Shown here in pieces: positions 7,829-61,380 of a stretch of 61,380 nucleotides of DNA (positions are counted from its first letter, which is position 1; each line of letters opens with the position of its first letter). Below the pieces are notes generated by a model. It saw only the letters and a list, made by a program, of their open reading frames with translations. It ran no database searches and was not told where the DNA came from. The position numbers were made by a program, and so were the translations under genes. Source of the stretch: Halorubrum saccharovorum DSM 1137 (GTDB lineage Archaea > Halobacteriota > Halobacteria > Halobacteriales > Haloferacaceae); assembly GCF_000337915.1 (NCBI RefSeq), contig NZ_AOJE01000060.1, forward strand, positions 62,870-124,249. The letters run 5' to 3'.

Positions 7829-8188
7829 TTATAAACGATCGAGTCTTCTGCGGTGACGCTCTCCAAAGCCCCAGTCGGTGAGGACGGCGCACGCTCGCTG
7901 TGCTCCTCTCTCAGTCGCTGACGCTCCTTCGCTGCGGTGCTTGCGTCACCTGCGCCGTCCTCACCGACTGCCCCTTTGAGTCCCATCCCGCCCGCTACCG
8001 CACAGCAGCCTCACGCCTCCCCAGCCTCGCGGTTCGCGCTCTGCGAGCGCGAACCGCCCCCTCGCACGGCGCTCTCGCCGGCGGCGGAGCCGCCGGCTGT
8101 CAGAGAGACCTTCGGTCTCTCCCTACTCGCGGCCGCCGGTGGCGGCCGCTCGGAGGCGCGCGCCACCGCACCGCAGATCTATTTATAA
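7829..8188 (+). repeat. Dispersed hairpin repeat, copy B (complete, with near-matching ends)
   Basis: Complete copy of the family, in the gap between two gene ends. Outer ends are near inverted repeats: TTATAAACGATC (7829-7840) against GATCTATTTATAA (8176-8188). The head block CAAAGCCCCAG is followed by a perfect 20-bp stem, 7872-7891 with 7951-7970, enclosing 59 bases; CAAAG and CTTTG outside it can also pair. Then come four perfect stem-loops with three-base loops: 8029-8041/8045-8057, 8077-8085/8089-8097, 8103-8110/8114-8121 and 8129-8137/8141-8149. The right end lies 12 bases from the stop of ilvA. Short frames through it look spurious. Confidence 0.85.
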
Positions 8189-49574: not shown

Positions 49575-49687
49575 GGTGAACACTGCCAAAGCCCCAGCCG
49601 CTCGGCTATAAGCGGCCCCAGCAGATCGACGGTGAACACTGCCAAAGCCCCAGCCGCTCGGCTATAAGCGGCCCCCAGCAGATCGAC
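49575..49687 (+). repeat. Two tandem head units of the dispersed repeat
   Basis: Two near-identical units of 56 and 57 bases, starting at 49575 and 49631, each with GGTGAACACTGCCAAAGCCCCAG and then a small stem-loop GCCGCT...AGCGGC. The full repeat copy C begins at 49688 with the same 23-base head. So the head occurs three times in series and then continues into the large stem only in the third. Spacing is regular (56, 57), which argues for tandem duplication of a head-plus-stem unit. Confidence 0.85.
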
Positions 49688-49964
49688 GGTGAACACTGCC
49701 AAAGCCCCAGTCGCGAGGACGGCGCACGCTCGTTGTGCGCTTCAGTCGCTCACTTCGTTCGCTCCTTGCAGTGCTTACGTCCCCTGCGCCGTCCTCGCGA
49801 CTGCCCCTTTGAGTCCCACCCCGCCCCACACAGCACCGCACCTCACGTCTCCCCAGCCTCGTCAGTCGCCCTCCGCGTTGCTCCGGGCGACTGACTCCCT
49901 CGCGCGGCGCTGTTCGCGCCCTTCGGGCGCTCACAGGCGCACGCCACCGCAGTTCGTTTATAAA
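49688..49964 (+). repeat. Dispersed hairpin repeat, copy C
   Basis: Full copy after the tandem head units. The main stem, 49708-49726 with 49785-49803, is a perfect 19-bp inverted repeat and differs from the stem of copy B by one base fewer and compensated changes. Downstream, 49861-49871 pairs with 49885-49895 (11 bp, 13-base loop), and GCGCCC (49916-49921) with GGGCGC (49925-49930) around TTC. The right end TTTATAAA is at 49957-49964. No coding capacity that looks real. Confidence 0.85.
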
Positions 49965-52147: not shown

Positions 52148-52356
52148 TCGCTGTGAGAGCGTTGCTGCCGGAGCGTCGCCGTCGGGGCGCCGTCACCGGA
52201 TTCGCTGTGAGGACGTTGCTGTCGAGGCGCCGTCACCGGATTCGCTGTGAGGACGTTGCTGTCGAGGCGCCGTCACCGGATTCCCGTGAGGACGTTGCTG
52301 TCGAGGCGCCGTCACCGGATTCGCTGTGAGGGCGTTGCTGTCGGGACGCCGGTTCG
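52148..52356. repeat. 40-bp tandem repeats upstream of the thermosome gene
   Basis: A unit of 40 bases beginning TCGCTGTGAGGACGTTGCTG and ending GGCGCCGTCACCGGAT recurs at 52202, 52242 and 52282. A longer first copy at 52148 carries a 14-base insertion, and a shortened last copy runs from 52321 to 52356. The period, 40-40-39, is not a multiple of three, so a coding repeat is unlikely. There are no unique spacers, so it is not a CRISPR array. It lies about 230-440 bases upstream of the thermosome start and just downstream of the small gene at 52400. Confidence 0.8.
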
Positions 52357-61153: not shown

Positions 61154-61380
61154 GGTGAAGGCCTCCAAAGCCCCAGCCGGGAGGCGGGCGCACGCTCGCT
61201 GTGCTCCTCACTCGGTCGCTTCGCTCCCTCGCTGCGGTGCTTCCGTCGCCTGCGCCCGCCTCCCGGCTGCCCCTTTGAGTCCCGCCCTGCACAGCACCGC
61301 AGCCTCACGCCTCCCCAGCCTCGTCGCTCGGTCGGGGCTCCCGGCGGTCGCCCGCTCCCTCGCGACTCCCTCGCGCGTGC
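61154..61380 (+). repeat. Dispersed hairpin repeat, copy D (3' part outside the window)
   Basis: Fourth copy, cut by the window end. The head GGTGAAGGCCTCCAAAGCCCCAG is followed by a perfect 19-bp stem, 61174-61192 with 61251-61269, whose sequence differs from copies B and C by paired changes. The inner block GCACGCTCGCTGTGC, itself a small stem-loop, is shared with copies B and D and slightly changed in C. It lies beyond the gatB start, in the opposite direction, in an intergenic region. Confidence 0.82.

Follow-up and report, generated by a model that had tools for sequence, protein, structure and literature searches.

The hairpin at positions 7872–7970 of the analysed stretch of Halorubrum saccharovorum DNA (61,380 nt, hereafter the window) is best read, with roughly even confidence on our part, as one module (H1) of a haloarchaeal repeat that is palindromic, mobile and built of modules, with arms that are rewritten and a core under selection. 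H1 repeats occur in tens of copies per genome, mostly in intergenic positions, and their arms co-vary while the boxes and core remain constant. The original prediction had offered two alternatives, that the fold is selected or that the arms are rewritten, and each turned out to fit a part of the hairpin: the core points to selection, and the arms lean towards rewriting or exchange at the DNA level. This division is based on low G·T content, near-equal G·T and A·C among isolated mismatches outside one position, double changes, inverted interiors and unrelated H1s for the arms, and on conserved mismatches for the core.

Results

Architecture of the repeat and its copies in the window

Comparing the order of parts across 30 loci of the same genome and many relatives, we recognised a modular repeat consisting of a TATA-like box, CGGTGAACACCTC, H1, a C-rich linker ending in CCTCCCCAGCCTCG, H2, TCCCTCGC, H3, ACCGCA and finally TTTATAA, which forms the 3' end of the element. 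Constant boxes (CAAAG-CCC ... CCC-CTTTG-AGTCCC) enclose H1, and inserted modules are present in some copies, such as the double hairpin at 8073–8125 of copy B. This copy sits between a small zinc-ribbon-like gene (+ strand) and a threonine deaminase-like gene (− strand), both named from our own reading of the open reading frames (ORFs). The features of copies A to D are as follows.

7829–7835, no strand: copy B, the near-palindromic TTATAAA, a TATA-like box preceding H1
7864–7984, + strand: copy B, H1 with constant outer boxes (CAAAG-CCC ... CCC-CTTTG-AGTCCC), covariance-model match G000:C60:70733-70849
7872–7891, + strand: copy B, H1 5' arm, 20 nt
7892–7950, + strand: copy B, core inside H1, where pairs covary and pyrimidine mismatches are conserved
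7951–7970, + strand: copy B, 3' arm of H1, 20 nt, fully complementary to 7872–7891
8016–8029, + strand: copy B, near-invariant linker CCTCCCCAGCCTCG
8029–8057, + strand: copy B, H2 hairpin, in which GA at 8051–8052 makes the arm perfect
8059–8074, + strand: copy B, 5' portion of H3, split by the double hairpin
8073–8125, + strand: copy B, inserted double-hairpin module, found within an ORF elsewhere
8126–8170, + strand: copy B, 3' portion of H3 including the small stem 8129–8149
8182–8188, no strand: copy B, terminal TTTATAA
35–154, + strand: copy A, truncated by the window start (linker 35–48, H2, H3, small stem 98–118, TTTATAA 148–154)
49587–49699, + strand: copy C, a tandem pair of units, both carrying a TATA-like box (CAAAGCCCCAG at 49587 and 49643; the next at 49700)
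49700–49817, + strand: copy C, H1 (arms 49708–49726 and 49785–49803)
49818–49963, + strand: copy C, linker, H2, H3 and 3' TTTATAA (49957–49963)
61166–61283, + strand: copy D, H1 (arms 61174–61192 and 61251–61269)
61310–61380, + strand: copy D, linker (61310–61323), H2 and the start of H3, truncated by the window end

Copy A could be used for H2 and H3 only, its H1 lying to the left of the window, beyond a single assembly N (locus L011). Copies A and D are truncated by the window ends, where the assembly has single Ns (positions 1 and 61380); single Ns also fall within the copies at L002, L007, L011, L022 and L028, some with identical sequence on both sides. These are assembly joins at the repeat, and the copies concerned may be chimeric.

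The number of inner units varies: among 210 copies, the 400 nt preceding H1 contain 0 to 4 extra CAAAGCCCCAGCCG-like starts; copy C carries two additional tandem TATA-like units upstream. In 83 of the 210 copies TTATAA lies 38 or 35 nt upstream of CAAAG, so that the spacing between a TATA-like box and the conserved CGGTGAACACCTC start is fixed. Another inserted module, which starts with CCGGAAGACG or CCAGAAGACG and ends ...GACTTCCGTGC...GGGACCGCAGCCTCACACC, was seen between H1 and H2 at L012, L026, L029 and L030. The window also holds a tandem repeat of four copies with a period of ~40 nt (52167–52351, family D3). An Rfam search of the window returned three tRNAs only, and no family above the gathering score for the element.

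Arm pairing in the window and covariation over many copies

Recomputation reproduced the perfect outer arms originally described for copies B, C and D (20, 19 and 19 bp), as well as the claim that arms of differing sequence carry matching changes on their partners. Arms B and C differ by one inserted pair and one T-A↔C-G exchange, and arms C and D by four pairs altered on both sides (T-A↔C-G, C-G↔G-C, A-T↔C-G and C-G↔G-C); in three of these pairs, each side carries a transversion. The small stems of copies A (98–118) and B (8129–8149), which had been singled out for the same behaviour, are indeed both perfect over 9 bp and differ by one T-A↔C-G. With DNA parameters, the hairpin of copy B folds 6.6 (plus strand) and 6.8 (minus strand) sd below dinucleotide shuffles, and that of copy C 5.0 and 4.7 sd below, so that pairing in both is beyond chance.

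Enlarging the alignment to 178 H1s could have dissolved the predicted covariation; it remained significant. In a home-made imitation of R-scape, whose null is built on trees without recombination between copies, six H1 column pairs (53–73, 20–111, 39–90, 49–82, 29–101 and 21–110) score above all 15 tree-based null alignments (S 174–283 versus a null maximum of 149). The next-ranked pairs fall on the same hairpin, a few of them from adjacent columns of two arm classes. Inverted copies were removed ahead of this test, and copies that contained N, had an unusual length or were mis-anchored at their ends were excluded before the counts.

Among 49 Halorubrum copies, 96.6% of H1 cells are paired, compared with 84.0% after shuffling of the 3' letters and 34–51% after sliding the partner by 1–3 columns; changes on both sides occur at 18 of 29 pairs, with 184 such cells versus 53.9 in shuffles. 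For 35 H1 matches from other genera, in an alignment that leans towards the structure (alignment A2 was fitted to the model), 97.3% of cells are paired, and the 33 distinct rows show both-side changes at 24 of 29 pairs (198 cells versus 49.7 in shuffles).

H1 arms differ from ordinary RNA stems

Watson–Crick pairs account for 4718 of 4928 H1 cells, with 38 G·T and 100 A·C, whereas a control of 20 distinct tRNAs from the same loci gave 11 G·T and 1 A·C in 172 pairs. The wobble share is thus 0.8% on the plus strand and 2.0% on the minus strand of H1, versus 6.4% in the tRNAs, and the preference for G·U over A·C expected of RNA stems is absent on the plus strand and weak on the minus strand. Half of the A·C cells come from the column pairs 11–122 and 45–83; excluding both leaves 34 G·T versus 50 A·C (p = 0.10). 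At these two pairs, in contrast to most others, A·C stands to G·T as 29 to 2 and 21 to 2, and pair 11–122 corresponds to window positions 7875 and 7967 in copy B. Strictly isolated mismatches outside arm position 4 comprise 14 G·T and 13 A·C (150 elements, 362 helices).

Among 54 close H1 pairs, which are not independent (any sequence was used at most twice), we counted 58 both-side changes that are Watson–Crick in both copies, versus ~6.6 expected under independent sides by arithmetic from the close-pair counts; 20 of the 58 are transversional, and 16 are C-G↔G-C. One-sided changes to a mismatch were more numerous (86). The copies at L012 and L154 differ solely by one C-G↔G-C, and those at the orthologous sites L026 and L157 by one C-G to T-A change and one base. 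In 6 of 190 distinct H1s, the interior is reversed between intact arms. Few G·T cells, C-G↔G-C double changes and flipped interiors are together signs of DNA template switching and of exchange between copies, although direct single-step rewriting of an arm was seen at no single site.

Conserved mismatches in the core and conflicting strand cues

In the H1 interior, covarying pairs are separated by near-invariant T·C and C·T mismatches (columns 54/55 with 71/72 are ~94–98% T or C), and 59 of 69 tandem mismatches in H2 are TC/CT. These plus-strand mismatches read as tandem G·A on the minus strand. Unpaired linkers and core are near-invariant across copies. Because arm correction would erase the T·C/C·T mismatches, their conservation argues for selection on the core. 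A possible case of arm correction is found in the window at H2 positions 8051–8052, where copy B has GA and copy A, like most copies of this H2 type, has TC; the type common to A and B retains TC..TC in 28 instances and has TC..GA in 3, some of these instances being repeat reads of one locus.

When the Watson–Crick structure was fixed, RNA energies favoured the minus strand in 178 of 178 H1s, with a mean advantage of 7.3 kcal/mol versus 4.4 kcal/mol with unpaired bases permuted (an excess of 2.9); with DNA parameters, the same 178 H1s gave no minus-strand excess over the permuted control. A strand difference in uncorrected fold energies, with 151 of 151 elements more stable on the minus strand, was set aside, being the same in shuffles (22.6 versus 23.1 kcal/mol, 48 elements), and for H2–H3 alone the real strand difference in fold energy is smaller than in shuffles. 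The strand cues conflict, the promoter-like phase pointing to the plus strand and the mismatch pattern to the minus strand, and do not establish the transcript fold implied in the original prediction.

Distribution across haloarchaea

A covariance model of H1 built from 49 copies gave 35 matches in the same genome at E ≤ 1e-6, and the copy B element was matched in 52 of 52 genomes of the genus. In large scans, which scored 19–31 candidates per genome and so provide lower bounds with rough E-values, the model matched at least 90 of 119 genomes and at least 21 of 28 genera of the family, and at least 140 of 194 genomes and at least 53 of 65 genera of the class. The exact H1 pattern was found in 14 of 14 same-genus genomes (53 matches in G001 and 30 in G028) and in 0 of 229 others; a range restricted to Halorubrum was nevertheless rejected, as the covariance model finds H1 in other genera and the exact-pattern result reflects diverged boxes. 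Ten other genera carry the same boxes and core with box ends altered yet paired, GAAAG/CTTTC and GGAAG/CTTCC replacing CAAAG/CTTTG.

By blastn, matches were obtained in 12 plasmid records (Halobaculum, Halorussus, Haloarcula, Haloprofundus, Halorientalis, Haloplanus, Natrinema, Halomarina and Halorarius), 11 of which have no annotated feature under the match and one of which is entirely without annotation. H1 relatives are spread through salt-loving archaea generally, and hardly any are annotated. Viral carriage was considered and dropped, with no exact-pattern match in viral contigs and no match in phages.

H2 occurs as a free hairpin with fixed flanks, between CTCCCCARCCTCG and TCCCTCGC, in 50 of 157 family genomes and 7 of 28 genera. 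Its flanks were also counted in two other genera (47 copies in genome G286 and 72 in G290); among the copies listed, the hairpins between them in G286 are long and quite different. Close H1 pairs in opposite orientation form larger palindromes in other genera (L298, L299/L310, L301, L308, L311 and L314).

Gain, loss, exchange and placement

Downstream of L15e, the element is present in 9 of 30 genomes and absent from 21. Downstream of ilvA, the H1 3' box was found at 19 of 30 sites, and only 99 and 86 nt follow the zinc-ribbon match in G021 and G037, respectively. A hydrolase-like gene carries the double-hairpin module in 12 of 20 orthologues, with clean absence from the other 8; this module measures ~51 nt (L027 1501–1577; L237–L256) and is decaying in some orthologues. 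Occupied versus empty orthologous sites represent gain and loss of the element. No target-site duplication was established by comparing empty and occupied L15e and hydrolase-gene sites.

Where orthologous copies have flanks 92–95% identical, their H1s are usually unrelated. The best match of an own H1 lies in another genome for 21 of 24 rows, so that gene conversion from the nearest own-genome paralogue does not by itself explain the arms, although the comparison covered far more foreign copies (168) than own ones (24). The own-genome exceptions are L007, L019 and L022; L029 has two rows, one of them from a mis-anchored copy. A Y1 transposase as resident mobiliser was likewise not supported: PF01797 occurs in 41 of the 52 genomes of the genus and is missing from 11, the copy-rich G001 and G028 included, while all 52 have the element.

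Of 176 placed copies, 92 are in convergent-gene gaps and 20 in divergent-gene gaps, whereas 195 background gaps measuring ≥150 nt comprise 50 convergent and 52 divergent ones. Gene orientation came from a simple GC-based caller, and the count leaves out 28 copies at the edges of loci and 8 that were called as lying within genes.

Discussion

In the reading we favour, arm complementarity would result from upkeep of the palindrome at the DNA level. When replication switches template at the hairpin, one arm would be copied from the other, with several bases rewritten at once and the interior at times flipped, and recombination through the common constant boxes would swap whole hairpins between copies. 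The core, that is the interior pyrimidine mismatches and C-rich linkers, would be under selection for recognition by a putative factor, the recognised form being perhaps folded single-stranded DNA or RNA. Rewriting is assigned to the arms because their footprints match those described for template switching; the interior inversion is the second such footprint in the terms used in passages of PMC8604942 on spacer inversion. Selection is assigned to the core because it is conserved across genera. Several observations speak against parts of this assignment, among them that no transposase was linked to the repeat and that single-step rewriting was seen at no site: the conserved T·C/C·T mismatches and the 28 TC..TC versus 3 TC..GA in the A/B type of H2 count against arm correction, and the imbalance of G·T and A·C over all H1 pairs (38 versus 100) and the excess of single mismatches over double changes (86 versus 58) count against rewriting of DNA.

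Ordinary pairing selection on the stems of a multi-copy structured RNA, such as a 3'-UTR element or a small RNA, is a somewhat unlikely account that nonetheless explains covariation spanning the whole hairpin, the near-invariant unpaired linkers and core, and the TATA-like box phased to the CGGTGAACACCTC start in 83 of 210 copies. It could also accommodate the minus-strand preference in RNA energies, which exceeds the permuted control across 178 of 178 H1s, and the A·C excess at two column pairs, which would read as G·U on the minus strand. What tells against a selected RNA is that wobble cells are too few on either strand (0.8% and 2.0% versus 6.4% in tRNAs), that the promoter-like box and the favoured strand disagree, and that interiors are inverted in 6 of 190 H1s; furthermore, the raw strand bias in fold energy is explained by composition, DNA parameters give no strand excess over the control, and tRNA is the sole Rfam family matched in the window.

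The conserved mismatches in a constant core, flanked by sequence-free arms, would also suit the hairpin substrate of a single-strand transposase or recombinase (REP/RAYT, IS200/IS605 ends or attC-like); such an enzyme would read the mismatched minus strand in its folded form, and the arms would be left free. We consider such a substrate unlikely. Presence and absence at orthologous sites and the double-hairpin module within a gene (in 12 of 20 orthologues, absent from 8) agree with it, and attC sites, whose bottom strand is recognised through its structure and not its sequence (PMC2727003), offer a precedent; the absence of a Y1 transposase (PF01797), the enzyme family searched for, from 11 of 52 genus genomes, copy-rich ones included, and the failure to establish a target-site duplication at the compared sites weigh against it. 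Finally, the excess between convergent genes (92 of 176) is what ordinary GC-rich intergenic palindromes would show if they served as terminators or end marks and evolved in no special way. Boxes, linker and core common across genera, a modular build, copies between divergent genes too (20 of 176) and a double hairpin inside an ORF make that highly improbable.

The repeat bears on a broader question. Selection on an RNA fold is usually proved by compensatory change, and in this large natural family strong covariation goes with flipped interiors and a nearly absent wobble signature, which provides a test of how far template switching alone yields 'perfect' covariation. Each genome has tens of copies and many species are sequenced, which makes the question directly countable. 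In this repeat shape is inherited and much of the sequence is not. If the core is read by an enzyme, that enzyme remains to be found. A further-reaching and doubtful extension would be a class-wide mobile element whose heritable unit is its shape, with self-templated arms and a strand-specific tandem-G·A core read single-stranded by a putative enzyme; this would be a DNA hairpin replicator of a kind for which we found no description in the literature searched. Word and sequence-string searches of open-licence PubMed Central full texts likewise yielded no description of the element.

Several known systems share parts of this design. Rickettsia palindromic elements insert in frame into protein-coding genes, and the double-hairpin module resembles them as a palindromic repeat in frame within a coding gene; organism and sequence are different, and the main haloarchaeal element, with its three hairpins, lies between genes. 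REP, BIME and REPIN sequences are dispersed hairpins associated with RAYT transposases. They are similar in being dispersed hairpins, and H1 copies of other genera also occur as close inverted pairs, but the haloarchaeal hairpin is much longer and 11 of 52 element-bearing genomes lack a Y1 transposase.

BOX elements of Streptococcus pneumoniae are characterised, in the passages of PMC3049150 on their structure and placement, as short, dispersed and modular repeats whose inner units vary in number; stem-loops are predicted for them, they are over-represented between convergent genes, and their insertions modify genes. The haloarchaeal element matches them in all of these respects of design, a relation in sequence not being expected, and differs in its sequence-free arms, measured covariation and conserved core mismatches. 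Yeast mitochondrial GC clusters, as portrayed in parts of PMC4478555, are GC-rich palindromes with presence/absence among relatives and with merging and shuffling of modules, all of which recur here; the stem of one cluster is conserved there (PMC4478555), whereas haloarchaeal arms vary freely in sequence, both sides changing together. Integron attC sites, according to the passages of PMC2727003 on their folding, likewise combine scant sequence conservation with a conserved hairpin design, mismatched bases and one favoured strand, but the haloarchaeal element has no known tie to cassettes or an integrase, and its recombination would be putative. Closest to our reading of the arms is hairpin evolution by template switching, for which passages of PMC8794818 and PMC8604942 describe multi-base compensatory changes, arm homogenisation and spacer inversion. 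The same footprints appear in the haloarchaeal repeat family; the cases treated in those passages are RNA genes and yeast coding genes, whereas here they mark a dispersed repeat family whose core escapes correction.
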